Positions 617 through 17,515 of a DNA stretch of 64,000 nucleotides are shown here, one piece after another. The notes under the pieces are model-generated. The model had not been told where the DNA came from. It was given only the letters and a program-made list of their open reading frames with translations, and searched no databases. The stretch comes from a virus: the IMG/VR virus record IMGVR_UViG_3300023049_000387, positions 1 to 64,000 of that record; one strand, written 5' to 3'. Numbering within the stretch: the first letter of the stretch is position 1; each line of letters starts with the position of its first letter. Position numbers and translations under genes: made by a program.

Positions 617-626
617 TTAATATATA
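617..626 (+). promoter_or_regulatory. TTAATATATA motif before tRNA leader 1
   Basis: The ten-base motif TTAATATATA lies 17 nt before the start of leader ORF 1. The same motif precedes leader ORFs 2 and 3 and many virion-type genes. It is a candidate phage-specific promoter element, proposed from recurrence and position only. Confidence 0.5.
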
Positions 627-642
627 GTGTAATATAACAATT

Positions 643-717
643 ATGAGAACAATTAATAACATAGCAATAATAGCGATAGGCAAAGGGAAAACTCATTGGC
701 TGGGAATTGTTATGTAA
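643..717 (+). CDS. tRNA-cluster leader peptide 1 (24 aa), Ile/Ala/Gly-rich
   Basis: The peptide is MRTINNIAIIAIGKGK followed by THWLGIVM. Residues 4-15 (INNIAIIAIGKG) are dominated by Ile, Ala and Gly, with four AUA codons, GCA, GCG, GGC and GGG. The four tRNAs that follow are Ile(UAU), Gly(UCC) twice and Ala(UGC). Immediately after this stretch, bases 697-704 (TGGCTGGG, codons for H-W-L-G) can pair with the 5' arm of the terminator (744-751, CCCAGTCA) in 8 bp with one G-U pair. The arrangement matches an attenuation leader: stalling at Ile/Ala/Gly codons would leave the complementary segment free to disrupt the terminator. Translation is inferred. Confidence 0.7.
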   Translation: MRTINNIAIIAIGKGKTHWLGIVM

Positions 718-740
718 TTAATTTAATTATAAATTATCAT

Positions 741-768
741 AAACCCAGTCAGAAATGACTGGGTTTTT
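741..768 (+). terminator. intrinsic terminator / attenuator before tRNA cluster 1
   Basis: An 11-bp stem AAACCCAGTCA/TGACTGGGTTT with loop GAAA is followed by a T-run. It lies 17 nt before tRNA-Ile and after the leader ORF, so it would stop transcription before the tRNAs unless the stem is prevented from forming. Confidence 0.85.
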
Positions 769-784
769 TATTTTATTATAAATT

Positions 785-856
785 GGTATGTAGCTTAGAT
801 GGTAAAAGCACATGGCTTATATCCATGAGATAGTGGGTTCGATACCCATCATACCA
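785..856 (+). tRNA. tRNA-Ile(UAU)
   Basis: Anticodon stem CATGG/CCATG closes loop CTTATAT, giving anticodon TAT, which reads AUA directly. The acceptor is GGTATG paired with CATACC. Most bacteria read AUA with a lysidine-modified CAU tRNA, so a UAU isoacceptor is uncommon. The leader ORF just upstream has four AUA codons. Confidence 0.85.
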
Positions 857-865
857 ACAAAATAA

Positions 866-939
866 GCAGGTAACGCATAAGTGATGGTGCACTAGCCTTC
901 CAAGCTAGAATAGAATCGGTTTGATCCCGATTACCTGCT
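866..939 (+). tRNA. tRNA-Gly(UCC)
   Basis: Acceptor GCAGGTA/TACCTGC is perfect. Anticodon stem CTAGC/GCTAG closes loop CTTCCAA, anticodon TCC. The discriminator is T, as in bacterial tRNA-Gly. Confidence 0.92.
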
Positions 940-950
940 CGATATAAAAT

Positions 951-1024
951 GCAAATGTAGCTCAATTGGCTAGAGTGTCTGATTTCCATTCAGAAAGTTG
1001 TAGGTTCGAATCCTATCATTTGCT
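951..1024 (+). tRNA. tRNA-Gly(UCC), second copy
   Basis: Acceptor GCAAATG/CATTTGC. Stem TCTGA/TCAGA closes loop TTTCCAT, anticodon TCC, discriminator T. It differs strongly in sequence from the neighbouring Gly(UCC) gene, so it is not a recent duplicate. Confidence 0.88.
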
Positions 1025-1031
1025 CATTAAT

Positions 1032-1109
1032 GGGGGATTAGCTCAGTCTGGTCGTAAGCGATAGCTTTGCAAGCTGTGTCATACATCGGTTCAAATCCGA
1101 TATCCTCCA
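1032..1109 (+). tRNA. tRNA-Ala(UGC)
   Basis: Acceptor GGGGGAT/ATCCTCC, anticodon stem ATAGC/GCTGT around loop TTTGCAA, anticodon TGC. It is the last tRNA of the cluster controlled by leader 1. Confidence 0.9.
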
Positions 1110-1159
1110 CAGGTTAATTAAAAAAAACAATAATTATAGAAGATTTGAGTGCGAGATAG

Positions 1160-1357
1160 ATAGAGAGAGGAGTAATTACTAAATTTGCATCAGATGAATT
1201 GGAGAAGTTGTCTAAAAATCATCAGGCTAGAAAATATCAAAGCTTCACTATAGATAGGTGAGTTGTTGATATTGTGGACATGTCACCGATTTCTAAGCTA
1301 ACAAATTCAGTAGATGTGATAGTTTATGGTGGTGATTCATTAATGGAGATTTCTTAG
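1160..1357 (+). pseudogene. decayed ORF with in-frame TGA
   Basis: One reading frame stays open from 1160 to a TAG at 1357 apart from a TGA at 1259-1261. It reads TKFASDELEKLSKNHQARK..., then after the stop VVDIVDMSPISKLTNSVDV. There is no ATG at its 5' end. Composition is gene-like on both sides of the stop, so I read it as a remnant. TGA ends intact genes elsewhere (for example at 2714 and 18105), so recoding is unlikely. A sequencing error cannot be excluded. Confidence 0.5.
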
Positions 1358-1401
1358 AAACATATTAATAATATATATATAGAGAAAATGTACATATTAT
1401 T

Positions 1402-2157
1402 ATGATTATAAGATTTAGAAGTAGAGGAGAAAAAGTTAAGGATTTGCAAAACTTGTTAGGACTAAAACCTGATGGTATATTTGGTCCTAACACTTTGAAA
1501 GCTTTGAAGAATTTTCAAAGAGATAATGGATTAAGCGTAGATGGTATAGTTGGTCCTAATACTTGGTCTGTTTTAGTAAAAAACGATAAGAATAGAATAA
1601 GACCAATTTACGATGTTGATCTAAACGAAGAAGATTCTGTATCTGATCCAGAGTGTATGTTCTGTGTAGAAGATATTGAGGAAACACAACCTTTGTCCCC
1701 TAGTACAAGGGAACTTATAAACCTAATAGAATCTAGTGATATTACTAGGAATATAAAAAGGCTTGTTTTCCATTGTACTGCAACATCTCAAAAAGCTACT
1801 GTATCTGCCATTGTGAATTATTGGAAGAATACACTTGGGTGGCGTTCACCAGGTTATCATATAATTGTTAGGCCAGATGGAACTTGGAATCAACTACTAG
1901 ACTTTAACAGAGTCTCTAATGGTGTTCGTGGTATCAATTCTACTACTATAAATATATCATATATTGGTGGTGTTGACCGAAATGGTAGAGCATTGGATAA
2001 TAGAACTAAAAAGCAAAAGGATGTCTATGAAACCATTTATAGAGCTTTTAAGCATAAATTACCTAGAATAACATTTCATGGACATAATGAATTTTCATCA
2101 AAAGCATGTCCATCTTTTAATGTTAAAAATTGGATAAAGTCTTTAAGAGTAATTTAA
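1402..2157 (+). CDS. N-acetylmuramoyl-L-alanine amidase (endolysin) with PG-binding domain
   Basis: The protein (251 aa) should cut peptidoglycan at lysis. Residues 5-58 form a PG_binding_1 domain with two DGI(F/V)GPNT motifs. A linker of about 50 residues contains two cysteines. From residue 118 follows an Amidase_2/T7-lysozyme-like domain: H124 in FHCTAT, NISYIGG near 184-190, and GHNEFSSKACPSFN with H228 and C236, matching the zinc ligands of T7 lysozyme. No signal peptide is seen, so export would need a holin or another route. Both flanking genes are decayed. The N-terminal position of the binding domain is less common than C-terminal. Family assignment is confident; its exact lysis role is inferred. 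Confidence 0.92.
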   Translation: MIIRFRSRGEKVKDLQNLLGLKPDGIFGPNTLKALKNFQRDNGLSVDGIVGPNTWSVLVKNDKNRIRPIYDVDLNEEDSVSDPECMFCVEDIEETQPLSPSTRELINLIESSDITRNIKRLVFHCTATSQKATVSAIVNYWKNTLGWRSPGYHIIVRPDGTWNQLLDFNRVSNGVRGINSTTINISYIGGVDRNGRALDNRTKKQKDVYETIYRAFKHKLPRITFHGHNEFSSKACPSFNVKNWIKSLRVI

Positions 2158-2285
2158 TTAGTATATATTTGCATAGTAAGAATTCTAAAAGAAAGAAAAA
2201 TTATAATATTATTTTACTATATATCATGATGTTGCATGTTTTTAGATGAATTAACAACACTAATCACTTAATAATACAAATCTAT

Positions 2286-2714
2286 ATGACCACAATTCAA
2301 ACAAATAATATAATTAACTTTTATTTCAATATTAGCACTGAATGTGGTATTGATATATTACATCTATCACCAAGCTATCTTAGAGAAAAGTGGATACTCC
2401 ATATAGGAACTGATATTGAAAATAATAATATAACCAAAAGTGTTAAGTTGGATACTTGGACTAAAATATGGGGTGTTACTGATAAAAATACAACATCAAT
2501 ATATTATATAATTCTAGAATTAAATTCAGTTCCACTAAGGGAAGCTAATATAACGTCTGTAGTTAATAAAATTATTCCTTATATTGATGAAAATAAGATA
2601 AACAAAGAAGAATATAATGGTTTACACCCATCAATAAATAGTTGTAAGGATCAATGGATGATGAAGAAAGAAAACAAAAGATACTTAAATATTCAAATGT
2701 TATTGAATGACTGA
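2286..2714 (+). CDS. hypothetical protein (142 aa)
   Basis: The reading frame of 142 codons ends in TGA and follows a possible TATATTTG promoter near 2163. The protein is rich in Asn, Ile and Tyr and begins MTTIQTNNIINFYFNISTEC. No motif, membrane segment or signal peptide is recognised. It lies between the lysin and a broken acetyltransferase gene. Confidence 0.6.
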   Translation: MTTIQTNNIINFYFNISTECGIDILHLSPSYLREKWILHIGTDIENNNITKSVKLDTWTKIWGVTDKNTTSIYYIILELNSVPLREANITSVVNKIIPYIDENKINKEEYNGLHPSINSCKDQWMMKKENKRYLNIQMLLND

Positions 2715-2737
2715 TATTTATATATAAGAGAAAAACA

Positions 2738-3193
2738 ATGAAATTAAGAAAGACTATAGCAACCACAATGAGAGGATATCTTAATGAGAATAATAGTAAT
2801 GAAAGTCATTTTTTATCTGAAAGTGAAAAATATGGCTCTTATGAAGGTATTATTCATTCTGATATAGAAAAAGTCAAGAATTAGTTCTCAAAACGAGGTA
2901 TTGACTACAATTCATATCTTAATCAAATTGAACTACCTGTAGCATTTTTAAACAATATAAATGTAGAATTAAAATATAGAGGAAAGGGATATGGTGATGA
3001 ACTATATTTTGATTTTGAACAGAATTGTTATTATTATAACACTAAATGCATAATATTAGAAAGTGATAGTGGCGAATCACAGAAGAAAGGTTTTAATTTG
3101 GACAATTGGTATGAAATCTTAGACTATGAGATAATTGGGGAAGAAAGTGGTAATTCAATTATGAAAAAAAAATTAATTAGTTCACAACGATGA
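2738..3193 (+). pseudogene. broken GNAT acetyltransferase gene (in-frame TAG)
   Basis: From an ATG the frame reads MKLRKTIATTMRGYLNENN, then meets TAG at 2882-2884. It continues open for about 100 codons with a GNAT core: NINVELKYRGKGYGDELYFDF, including the RGKGYG acetyl-CoA loop, then CIILESDSGESQ. It ends with TGA at 3193. A further piece in another frame (about 3178-3245, VHNDDGDNSALLNSDYEM) may be a frameshifted tail. The gene is therefore either inactivated or read through. The N-terminus resembles the short leader shared by other virion-type proteins here. Confidence 0.65.
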
Positions 3194-3254
3194 TGGTGAT
3201 AATAGTGCTTTACTTAATTCTGATTATGAAATGATAATTATTTAAAAATAAATT

Positions 3255-3476
3255 ATGGGACTATACGATACAGTAAAAGTACCTTGCCCTTCATGTGGTG
3301 AGAAGAAAGATTTTCAAAGTAAGAGTGGTGATGGTTTTTTAGAAGTAGTTGATTTAGAAAACTGCCCATATGATATACTAGTAGGCGTAAACAGACATTC
3401 ACCCCATACTTGTAAGTGTGGAGAAATATTTAAAGTGGATTTAAATACTAGAAAAAGTGTAAAAACAGAAAAATAG
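3255..3476 (+). CDS. small zinc-ribbon protein (73 aa)
   Basis: The protein begins MGLYDTVKVPCPSCGEKKDF and carries two Cys pairs, CPSC near residue 11 and CKCG near residue 53, plus His residues between. This suggests one bound zinc. Such small phage zinc ribbons have no assigned role. It stands alone upstream of a 257-nt non-coding gap that holds only a weak GTCCC...GGGAC hairpin (3488-3514). Confidence 0.65.
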   Translation: MGLYDTVKVPCPSCGEKKDFQSKSGDGFLEVVDLENCPYDILVGVNRHSPHTCKCGEIFKVDLNTRKSVKTEK

Positions 3477-3733
3477 ACTATGATAATGTCCCAAATATCT
3501 ATTAAATAAGGGACTTTAAAAATTAGGTAATTTTATACATTGTTGTGCAGAGTAGGTTATTAATTTAATTATGAGATGAGTAGTATTAATTATATAAAAA
3601 ATACAACTTATTATCTGTTTGTAAGTATAAGTGTGTAAGTGCTACTTATGATAAACTTCTAATATCACAAACAATCAATTTTAATAAAAGCATATACTAG
3701 AAAATAGAAAATAAAAAATAATAAATTAAATAT

Positions 3734-4969
3734 ATGAATAACACATCAATTATAGATTCATTTACTGAGCTTAAGTCAGACAAAATGATTAATAAAATAG
3801 AGATAATGGAAATCCTAGACTCTGTTTTTAGATTTGAGTTTAGAAAAAAATATGATACAGATGAAAACTTTGATATAATTCTAAACCCAGATAACGGAGA
3901 TTTAGAAATATGGCAAAACAAAATCGTTGTACAAGATGGCGAGGTTGAAAACCACAATACTGAAATAGAAATTTCAGAAGTTCTTAAGGTGGAGTCAGAT
4001 TTTGAAATAGGGGAAGAATATCCACAAGAATTCAAAATATCAGAATTAGGAAGAAGATCTATATTAAGTTTAAGACAGAATCTAAAGGCTAGAATAAAAG
4101 ACTACGAAAATAAATCAACAATAGAGAAGTTTGAAGATATGATTGGATATATTTTCAATGCCGAAGTCCATCACATAAAAAGAAATATGGTTATATTACT
4201 AGATGATGAGGGTATTGAAATTTGTTTACCAAAAGATAATCAGATACCTGGTGAGTTTTACAGAAAAGGTGATACAATATCATTTGTGGTAGAAGAAGCT
4301 GAAATTAGAAACAATAAGCCATACATTATTGCATCAAGAACATCAAGTAAGTTTCTAGAAAGAATAATGGAACAAGAAATACCTGAAATATTCGATGGTC
4401 TAATAAATATAAAGAACATAGTTAGAGTACCTGGTATTAAAGCTAAGGTAGCAGTGGAAACATATGATGATAGAATTGATCCTGTTGGAACTTGTGTTGG
4501 TAGTAGAGGAAGTCGAATAATGGCAGTTACTAGAGAGCTAAATGGTGAGAGTATAGATATCATAAGCTACACAAATAATATGGATTTATATATAACTAGG
4601 TCGTTAAAACCAGCCGTTGTTAAATTTATAAAGGTAGAAGATGGTAAAGCTGACGTTCATTTAAATGGTGAAGATATTGGTAAGGCTATTGGTAAGAAAG
4701 GTTCTAATATAAGATTAACTAGCTTACTTACTGGTCTAGAAATAAATCTTATAAATGATGAGCAAGCTACAGAGGAAGATATAGATCTTATGGAATTTTC
4801 TGATGAAGTTGATTTATGGGTAATAAATGAATTTAAAAAAGCTGGTATAGATACTGCTAAATCATTACTATCTTATGGTTTTAGTGAACTTGTAAATATG
4901 ACAGATTTAGAGGATGTGACTATTGAGAAGATAATAAAAATAATCAAACAAGAATTTGTTGATAGTTAA
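3734..4969 (+). CDS. nusA: NusA-like transcription elongation/termination factor
   Basis: The 411-residue protein has the full architecture of bacterial NusA. An RNA polymerase-binding N-domain (about 1-135) is followed by an S1 domain (about 139-205). KH1 contains RVPGIKAKVAV and YDDRIDPVGTCVGSRGSRI, the most conserved NusA signature. KH2 contains GKAIGKKGSNIRL near residue 320. A short C-terminal helical segment ends it. Length matches Bacteroidetes NusA. Known NusA binds RNAP and nascent RNA, and affects pausing, intrinsic termination and antitermination. A phage copy could reprogram host RNAP. It may also matter at the three hairpin attenuators before the tRNA clusters. That link is inference. 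It was probably acquired from a host. Confidence 0.9.
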   Translation: MNNTSIIDSFTELKSDKMINKIEIMEILDSVFRFEFRKKYDTDENFDIILNPDNGDLEIWQNKIVVQDGEVENHNTEIEISEVLKVESDFEIGEEYPQEFKISELGRRSILSLRQNLKARIKDYENKSTIEKFEDMIGYIFNAEVHHIKRNMVILLDDEGIEICLPKDNQIPGEFYRKGDTISFVVEEAEIRNNKPYIIASRTSSKFLERIMEQEIPEIFDGLINIKNIVRVPGIKAKVAVETYDDRIDPVGTCVGSRGSRIMAVTRELNGESIDIISYTNNMDLYITRSLKPAVVKFIKVEDGKADVHLNGEDIGKAIGKKGSNIRLTSLLTGLEINLINDEQATEEDIDLMEFSDEVDLWVINEFKKAGIDTAKSLLSYGFSELVNMTDLEDVTIEKIIKIIKQEFVDS

Positions 4970-4978
4970 AACAAAATA

Positions 4979-5206
4979 ATGTCAAATAGAAACTATAAAA
5001 TAGATAAGGAAATCGAGGTAACACTTAAAGTTAAAGTAAAGATTAATTCTTGCAATGACTATAATAGGTTGAACGAATTACAAATAGAAAATAATGTATC
5101 TGATTTTAAAAATGATATTAAAGAACATCTGCTAGATAAGCTAAGAAATAGCTATCAAGAAGAAGTTACAATAGGTATTGATTTTTGGGATTATGAAGTA
5201 GATTAA
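4979..5206 (+). CDS. hypothetical protein (75 aa)
   Basis: This charged 75-residue protein starts MSNRNYKIDKEIEVTLKVKV, 9 nt after nusA and on the same strand, so it is probably cotranscribed with it. The alternating pattern at 10-25 suggests a beta strand followed by helices. No family recognised. Confidence 0.6.
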   Translation: MSNRNYKIDKEIEVTLKVKVKINSCNDYNRLNELQIENNVSDFKNDIKEHLLDKLRNSYQEEVTIGIDFWDYEVD

Positions 5207-5224
5207 TTAAATACCATAAAATAC

Positions 5225-5253
5225 TTGTATAATATTTTTTATTTGTATATTTG
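5225..5253 (+). promoter_or_regulatory. Bacteroidetes-type promoter (TTG...TATATTTG)
   Basis: TTG at 5225 and TATATTTG at 5246-5253 match the Bacteroidetes -33 and -7 elements (TTTG and TAnnTTTG). The start codon of the next gene lies 13 nt downstream. Confidence 0.65.
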
Positions 5254-5265
5254 TAAAAAAATAAT

Positions 5266-5535
5266 ATGAAAACTTTTAAGAAATCATTTATTATAATAGG
5301 ACTTGGCGTACTTAACATACTACATGCTAGCCTTCATATATTTCAATTTGTTCAATCTTTTATGCTTGTAAAGGCATCTATAGAACTACAAGACACACCA
5401 ACAAATCACAGTGGTTTATTTTCAGATTTACTACACAGTCCATATTTTACAATAGTTTGGGCATTAGTAGGCATCTTGACCTTATACATCGGTATCAAGG
5501 ATTTTATTCATCATAAAAAATGTAAAAATGGGTAG
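5266..5535 (+). CDS. small membrane protein with two predicted TM helices (89 aa)
   Basis: Two hydrophobic segments, about residues 7-28 (SFIIIGLGVLNILHASLHIF) and 62-80 (YFTIVWALVGILTLYIGI), are joined by a polar loop, with a basic C-terminal tail (HHKKCKNG). Size and topology could fit a holin or a superinfection-exclusion protein, but there is no family match and it is not next to the lysin. It has its own host-type promoter, suggesting early or middle expression. Its end overlaps the next gene by 8 nt. Confidence 0.65.
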   Translation: MKTFKKSFIIIGLGVLNILHASLHIFQFVQSFMLVKASIELQDTPTNHSGLFSDLLHSPYFTIVWALVGILTLYIGIKDFIHHKKCKNG

Positions 5536-6433
5536 TTTTAATATAATATGTTCAATATCTAATACAGTCATAAGTGACGGCGATAGAGCAAGTATTCAGA
5601 TATTAGTCCCTGGTGGAAGTGAAAATTTCAATTCACATAAGAACATAATTGTATCAGAAAGTGGTACACAAGAGTTCTTCTCACCATTTGGGTTTCCAAT
5701 AAATGGTCGATATGATAGCTATGGAAGATTAAGACATATAGAAAATGACATAAATGTAGAAATGTTAGAAAAATTCTTTAACATAAATATATATGAATTA
5801 CTTAATCTAATACATTCTAGTAGTAGAACTTATGATGAAGAGGTTAAAAACACAGACATAATTGACAATTTGTTCATATCTTTTTTTAGAACAGAAGTCA
5901 TTGACTACATAGACAATGGAAGCCTAGATATAAATATTGACAACCCCGAAGAATATACTAGAGGTGCTTACATAAAAAGTATTTTAGATGGTATTGATGA
6001 TTATAACATAACAAACATATCAGAAAGAATATCATATATTGAAAGTATGGCAGAAGCTGATATTACAGAAGAAATTTCGAAAGAGTTTTTTGATTTAATA
6101 AGAAAACAAACTACAAGAAAAAAGACATATATTCAATCATTATGGCAATATAATATGTTTGAATTGCTACCAATTGATTTAATATTTAAAGACTATATAA
6201 TTAAACAATATAATCTTATTTCAACGATGACAAATGAATTGAAAGTATTATTGAGACCAAGCTTATATGGATCACAAGAAGGTGATGATTTATATAGATA
6301 CAAATTTAATAAAGAAATAAATAATCTAATCATTAATGATTTAGAATCAGAATCAGAATGGTTAGATGGTGAAGAAAAATCCATTATAAAGACACATAAT
6401 CGATCTGTCAAACTAGACAAATTGTATTCATAG
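5528..6433 (+). CDS. hypothetical protein (301 aa)
   Basis: The start ATG lies within the last codons of the upstream membrane-protein gene, indicating translational coupling. The N-terminal 90 residues look beta-rich. The remainder is helical and acidic (for example SEFLDLIRKQTTRKKTYIQSLWQYN-like region). No motif or known family is recognised, and there are no membrane segments. Confidence 0.65.
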   Translation: MGSFNIICSISNTVISDGDRASIQILVPGGSENFNSHKNIIVSESGTQEFFSPFGFPINGRYDSYGRLRHIENDINVEMLEKFFNINIYELLNLIHSSSRTYDEEVKNTDIIDNLFISFFRTEVIDYIDNGSLDINIDNPEEYTRGAYIKSILDGIDDYNITNISERISYIESMAEADITEEISKEFFDLIRKQTTRKKTYIQSLWQYNMFELLPIDLIFKDYIIKQYNLISTMTNELKVLLRPSLYGSQEGDDLYRYKFNKEINNLIINDLESESEWLDGEEKSIIKTHNRSVKLDKLYS

Positions 6434-6697
6434 ATGAAATTTAATAAAGAAGATAGCCTTATTGGTATGCATTTTGTATACATGTCTGGATATGATAAGA
6501 ATCCTAAATTTGATAAGATAATAAAACTCGTTGAACCAGTAGGTTTAACTATACAAGAATTTATAAATAAAGCTTATTATCCTATAGATTCATATGTAAT
6601 TTCACAAAATGGCATAAGGTACGAAATGAGAGAGATAAAGCTAACTCCAATTAGTGAAATTAGAAAAAACAGATTAAAAAAATTAGGAATTAAATAG
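6434..6697 (+). CDS. hypothetical protein (87 aa)
   Basis: The ATG directly follows the stop of the preceding gene (tagATG), so the two are likely translated together. The protein has a basic C-terminal tail (EIRKNRLKKLGIK). Function unknown. Confidence 0.6.
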   Translation: MKFNKEDSLIGMHFVYMSGYDKNPKFDKIIKLVEPVGLTIQEFINKAYYPIDSYVISQNGIRYEMREIKLTPISEIRKNRLKKLGIK

Positions 6698-11444: not shown

Positions 11445-11447
11445 ATT

Positions 11448-11714
11448 ATGAAAGATACATTTAGATACTTCATCAGAAAGAACTTCTCTGAGATTGGCGA
11501 AATAAGCAATGAGGATATTGATGAAATCGGAATTGAATTTCACAAGTACTTGGATAGCAAATTAAATGATGACCAAAAGGCTAAAATACTACCAAAAAGT
11601 GCGATTGATGTAATAATGAATAGCGACCACCCACTTAAAACAAACGGATTTGAGCCAGCATATATGCTACATTTTACACAATGGACAAAGGAACAAAGTG
11701 AATCGCAAGACTAG
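11448..11714 (+). CDS. hypothetical protein (88 aa)
   Basis: An 88-residue acidic helical protein beginning MKDTFRYFIRKNFSEIGEIS. It lies 3 nt after the previous gene and is the last of that tight run. No motif identified. Confidence 0.6.
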   Translation: MKDTFRYFIRKNFSEIGEISNEDIDEIGIEFHKYLDSKLNDDQKAKILPKSAIDVIMNSDHPLKTNGFEPAYMLHFTQWTKEQSESQD

Positions 11715-11779
11715 TTAAATGTTTTTATAAATTTTTTGGCTATTAGCTTCTATATTTACACAATAATAATAATAAAACA

Positions 11780-12001
11780 ATGAATAAAGACAATAATTCT
11801 ATTATAGATACTAATGTACCTCTTTTTAAGTATATCGAGATTAAGGATTATGACAATGATAGTGTTGTTAAGCGACTAGATGTAAGCGATAAATCCGATA
11901 GGCGTATAGATACTATCGAAAGTGGGATTGATATAAACTTAAACCATGACCAATACTATACGTTTAGTCATGATAGTGAAGTTGAATTAGAACTCATATG
12001 A
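11780..12001 (+). CDS. hypothetical protein (73 aa)
   Basis: A highly acidic 73-residue protein (MNKDNNSIIDTNVPLFKYIE...), ending in TGA. It precedes the promoter of tRNA leader 2. Function unknown. Confidence 0.55.
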   Translation: MNKDNNSIIDTNVPLFKYIEIKDYDNDSVVKRLDVSDKSDRRIDTIESGIDINLNHDQYYTFSHDSEVELELI

Positions 12002-12030
12002 AAATAAATTTAAATCTTTTTAAAAAACAC

Positions 12031-12061
12031 TTGTGAGAAACAAATATTAGTTATATATTTG
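12031..12061 (+). promoter_or_regulatory. Bacteroidetes-type promoter of tRNA cluster 2
   Basis: TTG at 12031 and TATATTTG at 12054-12061 have the same 23-nt offset as the pair upstream of cluster 3. The 85 nt between this promoter and the leader ORF are also conserved with cluster 3 (blocks TAAACTTTTA and ATAAATAACCA). Confidence 0.75.
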
Positions 12062-12131
12062 CACAGAACCTAAAATAATTTAAACTTTTAGTAAAAAAAA
12101 GAATATAAATAACCAAAGGAAGAAATAAAAT

Positions 12132-12141
12132 TTAATATATA
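12132..12141 (+). promoter_or_regulatory. TTAATATATA motif before tRNA leader 2
   Basis: The motif lies 7 nt before the leader ORF. It recurs at leaders 1 and 3 and at virion genes. It could be a second start site used by a modified polymerase. Confidence 0.5.
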
Positions 12142-12147
12142 ATAGTG

Positions 12148-12267
12148 ATGAAAAATTTAAACCTAAATACAAATAGAAACTTAACGCTCAATGTGGTGAA
12201 TATTATGTTATGTAATAGACCATCTAGGGGTTCTAGTGTATTTAATAAATTTCATCTTATGACATAG
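12148..12267 (+). CDS. tRNA-cluster leader peptide 2 (39 aa), all eight cognate residues present
   Basis: The peptide starts MKNLNLN. Residues 8-24 are TNRNLTLNVVNIMLCNR. They consist only of Asn, Leu, Thr, Arg, Val, Ile, Met and Cys. These are exactly the eight specificities of the 11 tRNAs that follow. Codons also match: AGA/AGG for Arg(UCU), GUG for Val(UAC), AUU for Ile(GAU), UGU for Cys(GCA), ACA/ACG for Thr(UGU). The next codons (PSRG) contain TCTAGGGGTT at 12223-12232, perfectly complementary over 10 nt to the terminator 5' arm at 12293-12302. This is the classic attenuation order: control codons, antiterminator, terminator. The MKNLNLN start is shared with leader 3 and is probably ancestral. 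Confidence 0.8.
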   Translation: MKNLNLNTNRNLTLNVVNIMLCNRPSRGSSVFNKFHLMT

Positions 12268-12290
12268 TGAAATAAAAAATACAAATAACT

Positions 12291-12327
12291 AAAACCCCTA
12301 GAAATGAAAATTCTAGGGGTTTTTTTG
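12291..12327 (+). terminator. intrinsic terminator / attenuator before tRNA cluster 2
   Basis: Stem AAAACCCCTAGAA/TTCTAGGGGTTTT with loop ATGAAAA is followed by a T-run. It ends 7 nt before the first tRNA. The 5' arm can pair instead with TCTAGGGGTT inside the leader ORF. Confidence 0.88.
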
Positions 12328-12333
12328 TTTTAT

Positions 12334-12418
12334 GCTAGTGTGGTGGAATGGTAGACACGAGGGATTCAAAATCCTTTAATCAGAAATGATTATATGAGTT
12401 CAAATCTCATCATTAGTA
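12334..12418 (+). tRNA. tRNA-Leu(CAA)
   Basis: Acceptor GCTAGTG/CATTAGT. Stem AGGGA/TCCTT closes loop TTCAAAA, anticodon CAA. A long variable arm (TAATCAGAAATGATTA) is typical of tRNA-Leu. Confidence 0.88.
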
Positions 12419-12430
12419 CATATATTACAA

Positions 12431-12504
12431 TCCTCGTTAGCTCAGTGGTCAGAAGCTCTCGTCTGTTAAACGAAAGGTCGGTGGTTCGAATCCACCACGA
12501 GGAG
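12431..12504 (+). tRNA. tRNA-Asn(GUU)
   Basis: Acceptor TCCTCGT/ACGAGGA is perfect. Loop CTGTTAA gives anticodon GTT, and the discriminator is G as in tRNA-Asn. The top anticodon-stem pair is a C-A mismatch. Confidence 0.9.
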
Positions 12505-12511
12505 CAAATAA

Positions 12512-12595
12512 TCGGCATATACCAGCCCAAGCTGATACCTTGGAGAACTGTAGTTGGTAAGTTGAAAACGTAGGTTCGAGTCCTACTGTGCCGAC
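12512..12595 (+). tRNA. tRNA-Ile(GAU), non-canonical layout
   Basis: Acceptor TCGGCAT/GTGCCGA and T-arm GTAGG-TTCGAGT-CCTAC are good. Anticodon stem CCAAG/CTTGG closes loop CTGATAC, anticodon GAT. Only 8 nt (ATACCAGC) separate the acceptor from the anticodon stem, too few for a D-arm. About 26 nt, including D-loop-like TAGTTGGTAAG, lie between the anticodon arm and the T-arm. The Ile identity is supported by the AUU codon in leader 2. Confidence 0.65.
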
Positions 12596-12608
12596 TTTTA
12601 TGACACTT

Positions 12609-12693
12609 GTCGGAGTGGTGGAATGGCAGACACGCTGGGTTTAAGCTCCAGTGGGCAGTGATGTCCGTGAGGGTTCGAGTCCCTTCTCCGATA
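12609..12693 (+). tRNA. tRNA-Leu(UAA)
   Basis: Acceptor GTCGGAG/CTCCGAT, anticodon stem CTGGG/TCCAG (one wobble) around loop TTTAAGC, anticodon TAA, long variable arm. Confidence 0.9.
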
Positions 12694-12702
12694 CGAATAA
12701 AT

Positions 12703-12792
12703 GCCAGTGTGGTGAAATTGGATGAAACACGCTAGTCTTAGGAACTAGTACCCAAGAGGTAAACATTGTCGGTTCGAGTCCGACCACTGGTA
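12703..12792 (+). tRNA. tRNA-Leu(UAG)
   Basis: Acceptor GCCAGTG/CACTGGT, stem CTAGT/ACTAG around loop CTTAGGA, anticodon TAG, and a long variable arm. Confidence 0.92.
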
Positions 12793-12802
12793 CAAAATAA
12801 AT

Positions 12803-12883
12803 GCCTTAGTAGTCCCGATTGTCTTCTAAACAATTAAGGGTAATTGGAAGCTGAAAATATAGGTTCGAGTCCTATCTAGGGTA
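12803..12883 (+). tRNA. tRNA-Arg(UCU), non-canonical layout
   Basis: Acceptor GCCTTAG/CTAGGGT and T-arm ATAGG-TTCGAGT-CCTAT. Stem ATTGT/ACAAT closes loop CTTCTAA, anticodon TCT. As in the Ile(GAU) gene of this cluster, there is no D-arm before the anticodon (8 nt only), and about 24 nt with D-like GGTAATTGGAAGC lie after it. AGA/AGG codons in leader 2 support the identity. Confidence 0.65.
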
Positions 12884-12892
12884 CAAATAAAA

Positions 12893-12966
12893 AGTTCTGT
12901 AATTCAGGGGTTCAGAATGCTTCCCTTACAAGGAAGAAGTCGTTGGTTCGAATCCAACCAGAACTA
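12893..12966 (+). tRNA. tRNA-Val(UAC)
   Basis: Acceptor AGTTCTG/CAGAACT is perfect. Stem CTTCC/GGAAG closes loop CTTACAA, anticodon TAC. Confidence 0.92.
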
Positions 12967-12972
12967 CAAAAT

Positions 12973-13044
12973 GTACCTATGACCGAGTGATTTAGGTAGG
13001 TGGCTGCAACCCATCGTACGGGGGTTTGAATCCCTCTAGGTACT
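12973..13044 (+). tRNA. tRNA-Cys(GCA)
   Basis: Acceptor GTACCTA/TAGGTAC is perfect. Stem GGTGG/CCATC closes loop CTGCAAC, anticodon GCA. The discriminator is T, as expected for Cys. Confidence 0.9.
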
Positions 13045-13051
13045 CTAATAT

Positions 13052-13124
13052 GCTGACATAGCTCAATTGGTAGAGCATTTGATTTGTAATCAAAAGGTTG
13101 TGGGTTCGAAGCCCTCTGTCAGCT
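13052..13124 (+). tRNA. tRNA-Thr(UGU)
   Basis: Acceptor GCTGACA/TGTCAGC, stem TTTGA/TCAAA around loop TTTGTAA, anticodon TGT, and a regular D-arm. Confidence 0.93.
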
Positions 13125-13134
13125 CTGAAAAAAT

Positions 13135-13224
13135 GCACTAGTGGCGAAGTGGATGAAACGCATCAGACTTAAAATCTGATACCCTTTGAGGTGAACAACG
13201 TGGGTTCAAATCCCACCTGGTGTA
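13135..13224 (+). tRNA. tRNA-Leu(UAA), second copy
   Basis: Acceptor GCACTAG/CTGGTGT, stem TCAGA/TCTGA around loop CTTAAAA, anticodon TAA, long variable arm. It differs from the other Leu(UAA) gene in most positions. Confidence 0.9.
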
Positions 13225-13228
13225 CTAA

Positions 13229-13314
13229 ATCGCTATGAACAGATGTGGTAATTGTGCTTGGCTCATATCCAAGTTAGAGAAATCTTATTGTTGGTTCAAG
13301 TCCAACTAGCGGTA
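13229..13314 (+). tRNA. tRNA-Met or Ile2 (CAU)
   Basis: Acceptor ATCGCTA/TAGCGGT, stem CTTGG/CCAAG around loop CTCATAT, anticodon CAT. The variable region is unusually long for a CAU tRNA (about 16 nt with AGA/TCT). Initiator, elongator Met and lysidine-modified Ile2 cannot be told apart here. Internal AUG codons in leader 2 favour Met. Confidence 0.8.
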
Positions 13315-13315
13315 C

Positions 13316-13356
13316 AAAAAAAGAGGGGATATAATTAATTATATCCCCTCTTTTTT
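13316..13356. terminator. bidirectional terminator after tRNA cluster 2
   Basis: A-run, then GAGGGGATATAAT/ATTATATCCCCTC with almost no loop, then a T-run. It ends the tRNA transcript and, on the other strand, the converging virion-type gene. Confidence 0.9.
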
Positions 13357-13368
13357 ATATTATTTGTT

Positions 13369-13800
13369 TTATTTATTTTTAAGACTTTCTATATCATCCC
13401 TTATCTCATCTATATCATCTAAAGATATATCATCCAAATCTTTACCAGCATCACCAGTATTATCTGTTACTACAGGAATAACATCTTCTATCCCTTTATC
13501 TATTTCCTTAGCAATGTAATCATCCCCTGCAATACTCTCTCTTTCTATTTGTAAACAGAACTGTGCTAATACTGCTAAATCATCATTTTTCTGTGCTAAA
13601 TCGAATACTTTGCTATTAAGTTCATATTTTGACATACCTCTAAATTTCTTTCTAGTATAGTAGTCATAGAAATCTTGCTCTTCTCTAGACATAACATTAG
13701 ATGGTTTTCTATCAATACCAAATATCTCTGTCTTTTTAGCTTTTGCAGTTACTGCTTCGCTCACTTTTTTATTGTTAAAGTCTTTATATTTTTTTATCAT
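13369..13800 (-). CDS. candidate internal virion protein with capsid-targeting-like N-terminus (143 aa)
   Basis: It begins MIKKYKDFNNKKVSEAVTAK. The run KKVSE|AV resembles the site where T4-type prohead protease cuts after (L/I/V)xE. The rest is charged, helical and strongly acidic at the C-terminus (DDISLDDIDEIRDDIESL). TTAATATATA lies 6 nt upstream on the sense strand (13806-13815). It lies in a minus-strand run with a tagged metallopeptidase and a large virion protein. Packaging is inferred. Confidence 0.65.
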   Translation of the reverse strand: MIKKYKDFNNKKVSEAVTAKAKKTEIFGIDRKPSNVMSREEQDFYDYYTRKKFRGMSKYELNSKVFDLAQKNDDLAVLAQFCLQIERESIAGDDYIAKEIDKGIEDVIPVVTDNTGDAGKDLDDISLDDIDEIRDDIESLKNK

Positions 13801-13818
13801 ACTCTTATATATTAATTT

Positions 13819-14454
13819 TTATTTACCATTTATTTCTTCAAACTCTTTTTCTAAATAAAGATAAATGTATTTTTTATACCTTTTCTTAATATCATCACTC
13901 ACCGCCCTTGATATTCCCATCCATAGACCAATACTTTTTAATTTAGAAAATGCATCTTTTATATCATTTGGATTTCTTTCCATTATTAGGTCTGTTATAG
14001 ATTGTGAAAAAGCCATTACCTCATCTTTATTCGAAAAATAAGCCTTTTGATCTGAAATGTTTCCTAAAAATTCAAAATTTAAATCAGCTGGTCGTCTCAA
14101 ACCTTGTTTTAAATGTATATTTTCATGCTTTAATACGTGGATAGCAAAACTGATATCATTACTCTCAAGATATCTTACATTATTAGCAAGAACCAATCTA
14201 GGCTTTTTAGTAACTGGGTTTAATAAACCAAATACTTTCATACCATTTGGTGGTGCATCTTCCCTCATTTTATCAGTTGGTAATTCATCATAGAATGTTC
14301 TGTAATAAACAACCTCTATATCATTTTTTGCACCAATTCTTTGTAATTCATCAACACTAATACTCCACTCAGCCTCGACCTCTTTTATAAACTTTTCTAA
14401 ATTATCAGACTTCCAATCTATTATTGCCTCATTAAACTTTTTTAAATGTTTCAT
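13819..14454 (-). CDS. HExxH metallopeptidase-like protein with capsid-targeting-like N-terminus (211 aa)
   Basis: The N-terminus MKHLKKFNEAIIDWKSDNLE matches the shared leader of several virion-type proteins here, with FNE|A as a possible cleavage point. Residues 110-114 are HENIH, an HExxH zinc-peptidase motif in a helix (IHVLKHENIHLKQ). E145 in KDEVMAF, about 30 residues later, could be the third ligand (gluzincin pattern). No signal peptide. It could be a protease carried into the host with the DNA, or a maturation enzyme. Activity is inferred from the motif alone. Confidence 0.65.
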   Translation of the reverse strand: MKHLKKFNEAIIDWKSDNLEKFIKEVEAEWSISVDELQRIGAKNDIEVVYYRTFYDELPTDKMREDAPPNGMKVFGLLNPVTKKPRLVLANNVRYLESNDISFAIHVLKHENIHLKQGLRRPADLNFEFLGNISDQKAYFSNKDEVMAFSQSITDLIMERNPNDIKDAFSKLKSIGLWMGISRAVSDDIKKRYKKYIYLYLEKEFEEINGK

Positions 14455-14470
14455 TATTATTCTTTTTTTT

Positions 14471-16696
14471 TTAGAAATTTTCGTTTAATGGAAAATTCTT
14501 TAGATAAATTTTATCATTGGCATTATCACCAAATATTAAATATTTAGAGTCATCACCCAATATATATTGATTCAATACTTTATTATGAGCTTCCTCTGGG
14601 ATAACATCACTAAAAAGTCTTATGTTAGTAACCTTCATATCAGATGCTAATATCTTAGGATTTTTATCAATATTATACTGAATAGGTTCTATGTCTTGTT
14701 TATTATAATACTCTTTTCTCAAAATTGTACTATTAAGCATTTTTGCATCATCTTCTATATCTACATTTCTCTTATATATATAATTTTCAATATACCTTTG
14801 ACGTTGGTTTAAATTTAGCACATAACAATACCAAGTATCTTCCTCTAATGCATCACTTTCCCCATCATTTAACTCAAATATATATTCTTCTTCATTCATA
14901 GTAACTGTAATGCTATCATTCTTTAGACTAGACTTCCATCCTTTATTAATCCCATTGTCATAAACGTCCATAAATTTATAAACTTCATCTTTTATGTAGT
15001 TATTTATACTAAACCAAACTTGTAATGATATGTTGTCAGATACATCAAGTATAGAATTAAAGTTCTTGTATTGAACTGCCAAACCATTATATTCTACTGT
15101 TGATAAATCATAACAATATTTAGATATTATGGTTGTTGAGTTTTCAATAAGTTCTTTATCAACTTCAGAAAAATACTCAAGTCTAATAGGATCTCTAGAT
15201 AAAGGTTGTTGTTCCTTCTTATTAGCAATTGACTTCTTATCTTGTTCTATCTCCTTTCCAAATAGTTCATCAATAGTAGTATTCTTTGTTAACTCACTAA
15301 TGCTATTAGAAATTTCTGGAATATCTGTCTGAACATTTGATTTTTGAGAATATTTTTTGAGAATAAGTTTATAATAAACAGCCGCATTATTAAAATTTCT
15401 AAACTGTTGAGCATGGTCAACTTGATACATTCTATTAACTTGACAAAAATGTATAAAATCTTCTTTAGAAGGTCTTCTCTGGACACCAAACATTTCCTTA
15501 AATTGTTTCTTTGTTATATGTGCTTCCATTGAATCAAATAATCCTAAATCGAATATGTTCATCTTAATCTGTGAGTCTGGAAAATTATTACCATCAATAG
15601 ATATTTTTAAATCTCCCTCACACACAACATTATATAATTGATATTCATTAAGTGTGTGGTCTTGACCATTGGCATCTGGATCAGTTGCATAATAAGTTAC
15701 TTTATGTCCTAGTACTTGTTCAGAGTCTGTACTTAATTTTTCATATAGTTGAGTAGCTTGTGTTTGTTCATAAGGATTATATAACTGAGCCTTGTCTGTA
15801 TCTGTCATTGGTTTAAATGCATCATTCTCACCTTCACAGTTGTTACCTGTTGTGTTTAAATTATCATTCATTATATACTTACCTTCACTGTTTATATAGC
15901 CTATCTGGTTGGATTTACAACATTCTCTTATCCCAAATAGATTACTCTTTTTATAATCTTCCTTAACATTTTGAAAATCTCCTACTAAATTTATGTCTTG
16001 AAACCTAGACACTGATCCCGATTTGTTATCAATAAGATATTCTATTTCAAAGAAACGTATAGGGTTTATCCTTTTGGTTGTTATATTTTCTTTAGTCAAT
16101 GGTTCCCATTCAGTCCAAGTTCTAGAGTTATCTTGTGAGAATCTATACTTTATACTTATGTCATCTAAACTAGTTATATTAATGATTTGTATATCTTCTA
16201 ATTTAAAAACTTTATATATGAAAGGTGCTTTTACTATCTTAGAATCACCTGGCTCTATATAAAATGCTTGTTCACCATTGAATTGTATTTCTTGTCTATC
16301 TATAATACCTTCTAATTTATATTCTAGTATTCTTATACTACCTATTTCAGAAGTTCCCTTTCTCACCCATTTAATTTCAAGGTACATACTATCTAGTGTA
16401 TCAACAACTGGGAAGTTGGTTATATTAATATTTAAGTCTAACCACTCAGACCATGTGTTACCATCTCTGGAAACTCTATAATATTGTAAGAGAAATCTAT
16501 CTTGTTTAAGACCTAAACTATCGTATGTAAATCTTTTGAACTTTTCCACATTATCTAACTTATCAAAAGATAATATGTATTCATCATTGATAGAATTTAG
16601 ATAAGGAGTTTCATCTTCAACACCAGTTGCCATCACGTCATATTCATCTGATATAGTTATTATTCCTTTCTCAAAATCTGAGTTTATATTTACCAT
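14471..16696 (-). CDS. large virion structural protein, tail/baseplate type (741 aa)
   Basis: The N-terminal half contains two related beta-domains. Each carries a Trp-rich turn, YYRVSRDGNTWSEWLDLNIN near residue 90 and YRFSQDNSRTWTEWEPL near residue 190, followed by (Y/F)(L/E)IE(Y/W) strands. The middle is Gln/Asn-rich and the C-terminal third looks like a concanavalin-type beta-sandwich (NISLQVWFSINNY, WYCYVLNLNQRQ). Size, repeats and TTAATATATA upstream (16702-16711) point to a virion protein such as a baseplate or tail-fibre component. The exact role is unknown. Confidence 0.6.
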   Translation of the reverse strand: MVNINSDFEKGIITISDEYDVMATGVEDETPYLNSINDEYILSFDKLDNVEKFKRFTYDSLGLKQDRFLLQYYRVSRDGNTWSEWLDLNINITNFPVVDTLDSMYLEIKWVRKGTSEIGSIRILEYKLEGIIDRQEIQFNGEQAFYIEPGDSKIVKAPFIYKVFKLEDIQIINITSLDDISIKYRFSQDNSRTWTEWEPLTKENITTKRINPIRFFEIEYLIDNKSGSVSRFQDINLVGDFQNVKEDYKKSNLFGIRECCKSNQIGYINSEGKYIMNDNLNTTGNNCEGENDAFKPMTDTDKAQLYNPYEQTQATQLYEKLSTDSEQVLGHKVTYYATDPDANGQDHTLNEYQLYNVVCEGDLKISIDGNNFPDSQIKMNIFDLGLFDSMEAHITKKQFKEMFGVQRRPSKEDFIHFCQVNRMYQVDHAQQFRNFNNAAVYYKLILKKYSQKSNVQTDIPEISNSISELTKNTTIDELFGKEIEQDKKSIANKKEQQPLSRDPIRLEYFSEVDKELIENSTTIISKYCYDLSTVEYNGLAVQYKNFNSILDVSDNISLQVWFSINNYIKDEVYKFMDVYDNGINKGWKSSLKNDSITVTMNEEEYIFELNDGESDALEEDTWYCYVLNLNQRQRYIENYIYKRNVDIEDDAKMLNSTILRKEYYNKQDIEPIQYNIDKNPKILASDMKVTNIRLFSDVIPEEAHNKVLNQYILGDDSKYLIFGDNANDKIYLKNFPLNENF

Positions 16697-16739
16697 AACT
16701 CTATATATTAAAAAAGATTATTTTAATTTAAAAAAAACC

Positions 16740-16770
16740 TTGTATAAACCATTTATTTATATTATATTTG
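16740..16770 (+). promoter_or_regulatory. Bacteroidetes-type promoter of tRNA cluster 3
   Basis: TTG at 16740 and TATATTTG at 16763-16770, same 23-nt offset as at cluster 2. The sequence from here to the leader start codon is a diverged copy of the cluster 2 upstream region. Confidence 0.75.
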
Positions 16771-16839
16771 CATAGAAATAATATAATTCTAAACTTTTAT
16801 AAAAAAAAGTCTATAAATAACCATAGAGAGAAATAAAAG

Positions 16840-16849
16840 TTAATATATA
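16840..16849 (+). promoter_or_regulatory. TTAATATATA motif before tRNA leader 3
   Basis: The motif lies 8 nt before leader ORF 3 in the same place as at leader 2. Confidence 0.5.
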
Positions 16850-16856
16850 AAACATA

Positions 16857-16961
16857 ATGAAAAATTTAAACTTAAACATAGTAGTTAACCCTCAACCCCA
16901 AGTTGATATCGATCAGGATTCTGATACGAAAGGTGCTAACTATGTTTTAAATTTAAGTTGA
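16857..16961 (+). CDS. tRNA-cluster leader peptide 3 (34 aa), Pro/Gln/Asp-rich
   Basis: The peptide is MKNLNLNIVVN, then PQPQVDIDQDSD, then TKGANYVLNLS. The control stretch has Pro (CCU, CCC), Gln (CAA, CAA, CAG) and Asp (GAU four times). The six tRNAs downstream are Asp(GUC) x2, Gln(UUG) x2 and Pro(UGG) x2, an exact match of specificities. TGCTAACT just after the stretch (16934-16941) can pair with the terminator 5' arm GGTTAG(T) over about 7 bp including G-U pairs, weaker than at leader 2. The first seven residues are identical to leader 2, so the two modules share ancestry while their control codons diverged to fit different tRNAs. Confidence 0.78.
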   Translation: MKNLNLNIVVNPQPQVDIDQDSDTKGANYVLNLS

Positions 16962-16980
16962 TATTTAAATAATAAAAACA

Positions 16981-17019
16981 AAAACTCGGTTAGTCTTTTA
17001 GATTAACCGAGTTTTTTTT
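16981..17019 (+). terminator. intrinsic terminator / attenuator before tRNA cluster 3
   Basis: Stem AAAACTCGGTTA/TAACCGAGTTTT with loop GTCTTTTAGAT is followed by further T residues. It ends 8 nt before tRNA-Asp. Confidence 0.88.
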
Positions 17020-17027
17020 GTTTATAT

Positions 17028-17100
17028 AGCTCTGAGGTCAAATGGTTAAGATGTACGTCTGTCTCACGTAACGGAGTGGGTTCGATTCCCATCAGAGCTG
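17028..17100 (+). tRNA. tRNA-Asp(GUC)
   Basis: Acceptor AGCTCTG/CAGAGCT, stem TACGT/ACGTA around loop CTGTCTC, anticodon GTC, discriminator G as for Asp. Confidence 0.93.
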
Positions 17101-17112
17101 CTAATATTAAAT

Positions 17113-17186
17113 TGCCCCATAGTGTAATTGGCTAACACATCTGGTTTTGGTCCAGAAGATTGCAGGTTCGAACCCTGCTGGGGTAA
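17113..17186 (+). tRNA. tRNA-Gln(UUG)
   Basis: Acceptor TGCCCCA/TGGGGTA, stem TCTGG/CCAGA around loop TTTTGGT, anticodon TTG. Confidence 0.92.
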
Positions 17187-17194
17187 CAAGTTAA

Positions 17195-17270
17195 TCGAGA
17201 AGTGACTAAGGTTATAAGCACGGGTGCATTGGAGGCATCAGTTAGCAGGTTCGATTCCTGTCTTCTCGAC
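17195..17270 (+). tRNA. tRNA-Pro(UGG)
   Basis: Acceptor TCGAGAA/TTCTCGA, stem GGTGC/GCATC around loop ATTGGAG, anticodon TGG. The discriminator would be C, unusual for Pro. Confidence 0.8.
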
Positions 17271-17281
17271 AAATTTTTAAT

Positions 17282-17353
17282 AGTCCATTAGTGTAAAGGT
17301 TATCATTTCCGACTGTCTCTCGGAAGATAGGGGTTCGAATCCCCTATGGACTG
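17282..17353 (+). tRNA. tRNA-Asp(GUC), second copy
   Basis: Acceptor AGTCCAT/ATGGACT, stem TCCGA/TCGGA around loop CTGTCTC, anticodon GTC, discriminator G. Confidence 0.92.
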
Positions 17354-17359
17354 CAAAAA

Positions 17360-17433
17360 TGCTCTATAGTGTAATTGGTTAACACGTCTGGCTTTGGTCC
17401 AGGAGATTGTAGGTTCGAACCCTACTGGGGCAA
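17360..17433 (+). tRNA. tRNA-Gln(UUG), second copy
   Basis: Acceptor TGCTCTA/TGGGGCA, stem TCTGG/CCAGG around loop CTTTGGT, anticodon TTG. It is close in sequence to the first Gln gene, indicating duplication within the cluster. Confidence 0.9.
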
Positions 17434-17442
17434 CAAGTATAG

Positions 17443-17515
17443 CGAGGGTGTAGTGTAATCTGGTAACACACGATGTTTGGGACATCGAATTGCTGTTCGA
17501 ATCGGACATCTTCGA
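17443..17515 (+). tRNA. tRNA-Pro(UGG), weak T-arm
   Basis: Acceptor CGAGGGT/ATCTTCG with wobble pairs, stem CGATG/CATCG around loop TTTGGGA, anticodon TGG. The T-stem (TGCTG/CGGAC) pairs in only about three positions, so this copy may be impaired. Confidence 0.7.

Follow-up and report, generated by a model that had tools for sequence, protein, structure and literature searches.

Putative leader-peptide attenuators matched to their own tRNAs precede phage tRNA operons

What controls the transfer RNA (tRNA) genes that a phage carries in clusters? The question is raised by the virus record IMGVR_UViG_3300023049_000387 (78,802 bases), of which we analyzed bases 1–64000, referred to here as the window. 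In the window, ARAGORN and Rfam located three complete tRNA clusters, together with the closing part of a fourth. In every complete cluster the order was a leader open reading frame (ORF), 18–23 nucleotides (nt), an intrinsic terminator, 11–18 nt, and the first tRNA. A sequence-only reading of this DNA had described the same order and proposed control by ribosome-mediated attenuation; the ORF, terminator and tRNA calls bore out the order in all three clusters, and the comparisons below support the interpretation at the sequence level. With a probability of about 0.92, we regard the tRNA operons as autogenous, isoacceptor-sensing, ribosome-mediated transcription attenuators.

All cluster features in the window lie on the + strand. 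Leader ORF 1 (643–717; 24 residues, MRTINNIAIIAIGKGKTHWLGIVM) carries Ile, Ala and Gly codons, with four of its six Ile codons being ATA. Its region 2, the segment predicted to pair with the 5′ arm of the terminator, is at 696–705 (−14.4 kcal/mol), the predicted terminator hairpin 3:4 is at 741–766 (−16.6 kcal/mol), and tRNA operon 1 (784–1110) comprises Ile-UAU, Gly-UCC (866–939), Gly-UCC and Ala-UGC. Leader ORF 2 (12148–12267; 39 residues, MKNLNLNTNRNLTLNVVNIMLCNRPSRGSSVFNKFHLMT, opening MKNLNLNTNRNLTLNVVNIMLCNRPSRG) carries Asn, Leu, Thr, Val, Met, Cys and Arg codons and is followed by a predicted terminator at 12291–12323 (−17.4 kcal/mol), with which its region 2 (12222–12233) is predicted to pair at −17.3 kcal/mol. 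Operon 2 (12334–13315) comprises four Leu tRNAs, Asn, Arg-UCU (12803–12883), Val, Cys, Thr and Met/CAU, and is closed by a further terminator at 13317–13356. Leader ORF 3 (16857–16961; 34 residues, MKNLNLNIVVNPQPQVDIDQDSDTKGANYVLNLS, opening MKNLNLNIVVNPQPQVDIDQDSD) carries Pro, Gln and Asp codons, with a predicted region 2 at 16930–16949 (−11.4 to −12.3 kcal/mol) and a predicted terminator at 16980–17016 (−20.5 kcal/mol). Operon 3 (17028–17516) comprises Asp, Gln, Pro-UGG (17196–17269), Asp, Gln and Pro. The tRNAs at 866–939, 12803–12883 and 17196–17269 were found by Rfam only, and their identities were assigned by eye from the loops. As the sequence-only reading had stated, the complement of the terminator 5′ arm thus lies inside each ORF, 3′ of most of the biased codons. 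A protector or pause hairpin 1:2 was also predicted in the three leaders (−15.6, −13.7 and −17.5 kcal/mol, without a shuffle control).

The residue bias of the leaders had been said to equal the tRNA specificities downstream. Relative to expectations from the phage's own codon usage, residues 5′ of region 2 that belonged to the operon's tRNA set numbered 9 of 16 in leader 1 (expected 2.8, binomial P 0.0005), 21 of 23 in leader 2 (expected 7.6, P 9e-9, Arg counted) and 9 of 23 in leader 3 (expected 2.8, P 0.001). The match therefore holds, but "equals" is too strong because the leaders contain unrelated residues too. The Ile assigned to the second cluster could not be upheld, since no Ile tRNA was found there; the only candidate is the CAU tRNA, which is Met or possibly Ile2. 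At the start of the window (1–124, +), the fourth cluster is represented by the 3′ part of tRNA-Tyr, whole in L004, and tRNA-Glu (51–124). The cluster is complete in the close relatives L003 and L004, with a leader (MNTFTNIEYYYEESERKRSASLLMSIM; L004 6075–6158), a terminator (about 6177–6210), tRNA-Tyr and tRNA-Glu, and Tyr or Glu accounts for 7 of 18 leader residues (expected 2.2, P 0.004). This leader lies beyond the window edge, where the earlier reading was blind to it, and thus provides an out-of-sample confirmation.

To look beyond this genome, viral contigs were searched with the terminator pattern AAACCCAGTC(3-14)GACTGGGTTTTTT, giving 61 stretches. Fifteen of these were hand-chosen and viewed by eye, 10 beside tRNAs and five for contrast or without a close tRNA; a fitting leader was present in 10/10 of the stretches adjoining tRNA genes and in 0/5 of the others. 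Scanning of all the terminator stretches (L124–L184) showed that ORFs also occur 5′ of some terminators without tRNAs. Further contigs were recruited by leader patterns, and the tRNA-bearing regions were then put through one fixed automated procedure. A unit was defined by ARAGORN tRNAs and a terminator scan, with the terminator end at most 150 nt from the tRNA, and its leader was called, ignoring composition, as the longest ATG ORF of 12–60 residues with its stop at −90 to +12 of the hairpin. The longest-ORF rule probably chose the wrong ORF in the second unit of L210 and the Gln unit of L372. An ORF was present in 55/55 units of the first set (window, L185–L217) and in 35/35 units of the second (L233, L234, L360–L374), making 90 terminator-then-tRNA units from 26 of 29 records. 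No unit was found in the records G012, G015 and G016, the first of which has two leader–terminator pairs with no tRNA within 150 nt. An ORF of 15–50 residues with its stop 16–36 nt ahead preceded 90/90 tRNA-linked terminators vs 27/121 terminators without a tRNA in the same regions. The set includes near-copy records (G000–G002; G019, G022 and G023), and identical leaders were counted once, reducing the 90 units to 75 and the 55 of the first set to 47. The stop-to-hairpin distance in these 47 was 18–35 nt.

Since the records were selected through their terminator or leader patterns, they are not a prevalence sample. Among 228 loci recruited by the MKNLNLN and QQQQQIN codon patterns, 14 of the 21 tRNA-bearing loci had no unit, and the T4 tRNA cluster gave none in the same scan; we therefore rejected the idea that phage tRNAs generally come in such units. 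A search of a bacterial and archaeal genome collection gave no exact match to either of two leader patterns. Two leader peptides, compared with 50,697 phage records, matched no cultured phage, only the uncultured LR745206 and LR756502.

Across the collected units, leader composition followed the tRNAs. The mean share of residues belonging to a leader's own tRNA set was 0.335 in the 47 distinct leaders vs 0.150 when permuted (standard deviation 0.014), and 0.343 vs 0.153 in the 75; in neither case did any of 100,000 shuffles reach the observed value. With one leader per similarity cluster (n = 16), the share was 0.293 vs 0.133 (standard deviation 0.023). The +1 and +2 frames of the 47 leaders gave 0.162 and 0.138, close to the 0.155 obtained by shuffling. 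Each of the 20 amino acids was commoner in leaders whose unit has the corresponding tRNA, with ratios from 1.3 to 11.3, the weakest being Val, Thr and Ile. Leaders of Gln-only units contain MRTTTQYQQQQQINPTD or MTTSFQQQQQQQINRTD, those of Phe/His/Lys/Trp units contain HKHFSKSNKWFS, and those of Arg/Ser units contain SSSSRSSR. In several records, Tyr/Glu and Ile/Gly/Ala form separate units with separate leaders. In G008 and G013 a single operon holds all five tRNAs, and its single leader has all five residues (MRTIINIEAIGYAYEAGSFV in G013), so that operon fusion is accompanied by leader fusion. The expectation that leader composition tracks tRNA content in relatives was thus confirmed, including this one fused arrangement in two records. 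The permutation, frame and codon controls, together with the fourth cluster, led us to reject chance as the origin of the match.

The proposed switch requires that a leader pair with its own terminator. The best pairing of a leader with its own terminator 5′ arm averaged −12.3 kcal/mol; arms taken from other clusters gave −8.1, and leaders with shuffled codons −7.2. Taken singly, 27 of 47 leaders outdid their own codon-shuffled versions at P 0.05. Where the terminator sequence had changed within a family, the leader's own arm was bound more strongly than those of relatives in 21 of 28 comparisons (Wilcoxon P 0.0002). For example, CCCCTAG faces CTAGGGG in the window, and CCCGAACC is opposite GGTTCGGG in L195. 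The share of control residues was 0.443 in the part of the leader ahead of region 2 and 0.145 from there onward, with the higher share in the earlier part in 66 of 71 leaders. Folding of terminator vs antiterminator had been suggested earlier as a check: the terminator arm paired with RNA upstream of it at a computed 0.73 when a ribosome occupied the final control codon ahead of region 2 vs 0.09 when it occupied the stop codon, with the same direction in 75/75 leaders, a contrast that is partly built in. On the whole, the sequences are consistent with an antiterminator 2:3 that would exclude the terminator 3:4 and has been conserved by co-variation; the geometry of region 2 was borne out, and co-variation with the terminator in 21 of the 28 comparisons.

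The mechanism that we propose is as follows. Transcription would start upstream of a leader ORF of 16–43 residues, whose first part is enriched for codons that the tRNAs of the same operon read and whose next part (region 2) may pair with region 3, the 5′ arm of the terminator 3:4 just 5′ of the first tRNA. When these tRNAs are charged and plentiful, the ribosome would cover region 2, 3:4 would form, and transcription would stop before the tRNAs. Should any one tRNA run short, the ribosome would stall on its codon, 2:3 would form, the terminator would fail and the operon would be transcribed. The leader would thereby act as an OR gate over the operon's tRNAs, with the product closing the loop; some phage aminoacyl-tRNA synthetase genes may use the same device, alone or with tRNA operons. 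The sequences argue for this scheme through their anatomy, the composition match, the codon–anticodon match, selection on the frame, geometry and, in most families, co-variation between region 2 and the terminator. From these we infer translation, stalling, read-through and a cause of tRNA shortage during infection.

Several observations weigh against it. The units hold 288 of 406 and 190 of 252 tRNAs of the fetched regions, leaving 118 of 406 and 62 of 252 outside, and the lone tRNA-Met of the window's record (L002 11149–11223, −) has no leader. Some leaders contain residues with no tRNA in the unit, such as Ser in HKHFSKS leaders and Val in Asp/Pro leaders. Certain tRNAs, conversely, are not represented by any codon in the leader of their unit, Glu in the Asp/Glu/Pro unit of L198 being one. 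Twenty of the 47 leaders did not beat their codon shuffles, seven of the 28 compared within families (five Asp/Pro, two Gln) paired no better with their own arm than with those of relatives, and the Asp/Pro/Gln leader of L372 paired at only −3.0 kcal/mol. Part of the folding contrast between stalled and stop-codon ribosomes arises because an early stall leaves more RNA free. Leader 1 of the window has no close TATATTTG, the promoter-like element described below.

The best-surviving alternative concerns the trigger only. The earlier reading had offered cleavage by a defense anticodon nuclease or phage takeover as causes of shortage; amino-acid starvation or plain tRNA homeostasis would fit equally well. 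We lean slightly towards a housekeeping role, in which tRNA supply is balanced as phage messages load translation, rather than a host-defense response. The units span tRNAs for all 20 amino acids and synthetases are included, which fits general supply; nothing speaks directly against it; the indirect counterpoint is that phage tRNAs have been reported to counter tRNA-cleaving defenses (PMC10264068, PMC11555353). A bolder version, which we put at somewhat below even odds, is that huge phages have a genome-wide regulon for tRNA surveillance, resolved to the isoacceptor, in which each operon would monitor its own tRNAs, and in places the matching synthetases, through a multi-input leader. Tandem leaders would nest the control of adjacent operons, and the system would have evolved to detect and replace tRNAs lost in infection, including those cut by host anticodon nucleases.

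The same anatomy could instead sense amino-acid starvation, as in the trp, his and leu operons, with tRNAs as an incidental output. To a leader, stalling from amino-acid shortage would look identical, and this is the classical use of such leaders (PMC1183508). Codon choice within an amino acid, however, follows the operon's anticodon. ATA made up 19/27 Ile codons in UAU-only units vs 2/20 in GAU-only units (P 7e-5), and CGN made up 22/28 Arg codons in NCG units vs 3/19 in UCU/CCU units (P 3e-5), AGR going with Arg-UCU; these P values are optimistic because the cells count codons from related leaders. The codon choice therefore points to the individual isoacceptor, not the amino acid, as what is sensed. 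As the output of the tRNA operons is tRNAs and synthetases with no biosynthetic enzymes, we consider starvation sensing very improbable.

A T-box-like riboswitch, whose codons would pair directly with tRNA without translation, would likewise give leader codons that match the anticodons of downstream tRNAs. Against it, the signal is confined to the ORF frame, each leader has many codons, and substitutions are of the coding type. Among homologous leaders, single-base codon differences 5′ of region 2 numbered 159, 270 and 578 at positions 1, 2 and 3, and a ratio akin to that of nonsynonymous to synonymous substitution (dN/dS) was 0.25 in frame vs 1.33 and 1.24 out of frame. From region 2 on, where RNA pairing too constrains the sequence, the ratio was 0.52 in frame vs 0.92 and 0.76 out of frame. 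This pattern of substitution shows purifying selection on the leader coding frame and lends indirect but strong support to translation of the leaders, which we infer. At the Rfam gathering score the window yielded tRNA alone, with T-box not reached, and in the regions of the three leaders no T-box appeared even with E relaxed to 1; a T-box-like device is thus barely credible. Sub-threshold Rfam matches at E up to 1 included His_leader and Phe_leader, which were rejected as leader identities and taken as generic hairpin-plus-T hits.

Promoter-like elements were found upstream of the leaders. The element TATATTTG occurs at 12054–12061 and 16763–16770 (both +), each 94 nt 5′ of leader 2 or 3, and TAnnTTTG lies within 160 nt 5′ of 37 of the 47 leaders (background 0.17 per 160 nt). 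We take TAnnTTTG to be the Bacteroidota −7 element and, from promoter type alone, presume a Bacteroidota host. For the lone tRNA-Met of L002 (11149–11223, −), TAnnTTTG lies close 5′, and a hairpin with a T run was seen by eye 3′ of it. It is hardly tenable that the terminator merely ends upstream transcription, the tRNAs having their own promoter and the ORF being a small protein gene: the same terminator family does occur at ordinary gene ends, but the distance from terminator to first tRNA (median 18 nt, range 5–124) makes a hidden promoter unlikely in most units, leader composition tracks the tRNAs, and region 2 pairs with the terminator.

Besides tRNA operons, similar leaders precede synthetase genes. 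A terminator identical over 35 bases to window terminator 1 lies 5′ of an aspartyl-tRNA synthetase (AspRS) gene in the 642-kb phage LR756502, and three phage AspRS genes (NCBIfam NF003483, above cut-off) stand behind terminators with the Asp-rich leaders MRKIIKLKDDRYLWTDCLAD, MTIKRIKLADDCLTCLTVTD and MKNIRLNDDRFLLTNCKADW. An IleRS gene (TIGR00392, 620.6 bits against a cut-off of 621.4, incomplete at the stretch end) follows the Ile-rich leader MNFNTIIIIRYSIPWSIPIG, and a HisRS-like gene (150 bits, below the cut-off of 287) and then a "PheS-related mystery ligase SrmL" follow the leader MKTLNINTHFHFHFENLELGVH. In the 507-kb phage G008 (L225 1450–3194), the 211-residue HisRS-like protein and SrmL are encoded in a row behind an HFHFHF leader and terminator. 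This leader would predict that the pair concerns His and Phe supply. Comparison of coordinates further placed AsnRS, ThrRS, SerRS and ProRS genes of G008 (all above a cut-off) inside or directly behind tRNA operons for the same amino acid, and likewise LysRS (slightly short of its cut-off) and a weak match to GlyRS. Other synthetase matches, in L221, L222 and L219, had no such leader nearby.

Some units stand in tandem. In L186, L189, L192, L198, L202, L234 and L361, Asp/Pro leaders carry Gln codons and the next attenuated unit is Gln-only. The Gln share was 0.10–0.15 in the seven leaders whose next unit adds Gln (background 0.02), as if the first Asp/Pro leader gated both units; the other 16 of 23 tandem pairs were mixed or at background.

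Variations in unit layout were also observed. Endonuclease-like ORFs were seen by eye between terminator and tRNAs in L366, L369, L367 and L368. At L206 11222–11258, L207 4332–4366 and L208 2638–2662, a leader and terminator are followed by a conserved 65-residue ORF (ME..KKIQENYEELKK...), with tRNAs further on. The near relative L216 has about 0.9 kb of extra DNA, compared with the window, between tRNA-Asn and tRNA-Leu-UAG inside the Leu/Asn cluster. Between clusters 1 and 2, the window encodes a phage NusA homolog (3734–4969, +) with NusA_N and NusA-like KH domains. Host NusA affects attenuation; the phage protein was present in 1 of 9 other records, of the same lineage, and was therefore rejected as a standing partner of the leaders. 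The window also contains an OrfB/TnpB-like gene (44036–45154, +) and two HNH/homing endonuclease-like genes (40289–42025, −; 47735–49543, +).

If the proposed attenuation is true, a tRNA operon switched by its own tRNA forms a closed loop, with several amino acids in one OR gate, among the largest known phages. Each leader would then list, codon by codon, which shortage switches the operon on, and so state what each phage prepares for. As natural sensors of individual tRNA isoacceptors the leaders would be ready to use, and they would supply a sequence rule for finding such control elsewhere.

The closest known relatives of this system are the trp, his and leu attenuators, which share the leader ORF with control codons, the 2:3 and 3:4 alternatives, the terminator before the first gene and the dependence on the isoacceptor reading the control codon, as modeled for leader-peptide attenuation by Elf and Ehrenberg (2005, PMC1183508). 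The phage leaders differ in having tRNA genes as output, in taking up to eight amino acids per leader and in sensing their own product. The logic of the phage AspRS and IleRS leaders is shared by attenuators of synthetase genes, the leader-peptide attenuator before E. coli pheST being one case. Others have been predicted before trpS2 and leuS in Streptomyces (PMC1262725), and the synthetase attenuators described there concern single synthetase genes of cellular bacteria, with tRNA operons not among them. Like the proposed attenuators, the T-box riboswitch responds to whether specific tRNAs are charged and acts on tRNA-related genes through termination, but it binds tRNA directly and needs no translation, and it had no match in the window leaders. 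Huge phages rich in tRNAs and synthetases (Al-Shayeb 2020, PMC7162821), comparable to LR756502 (642 kb) and LR745206 (634 kb), provide a kindred setting; the main text of that paper contains no occurrence of attenuat-, leader or terminator and does not describe tRNA control, and one paper on phage tRNAs does not mention operon, leader or attenuation. Among the matches listed from 5.39 million open papers and judged by title and abstract, none described leader-peptide control of tRNA genes or phage tRNAs, in agreement with the earlier view that such control had no known precedent for phage tRNA clusters. Ribosome-mediated attenuation itself is classical; what is new here is the tRNA output, the multi-input isoacceptor logic and the phage setting.

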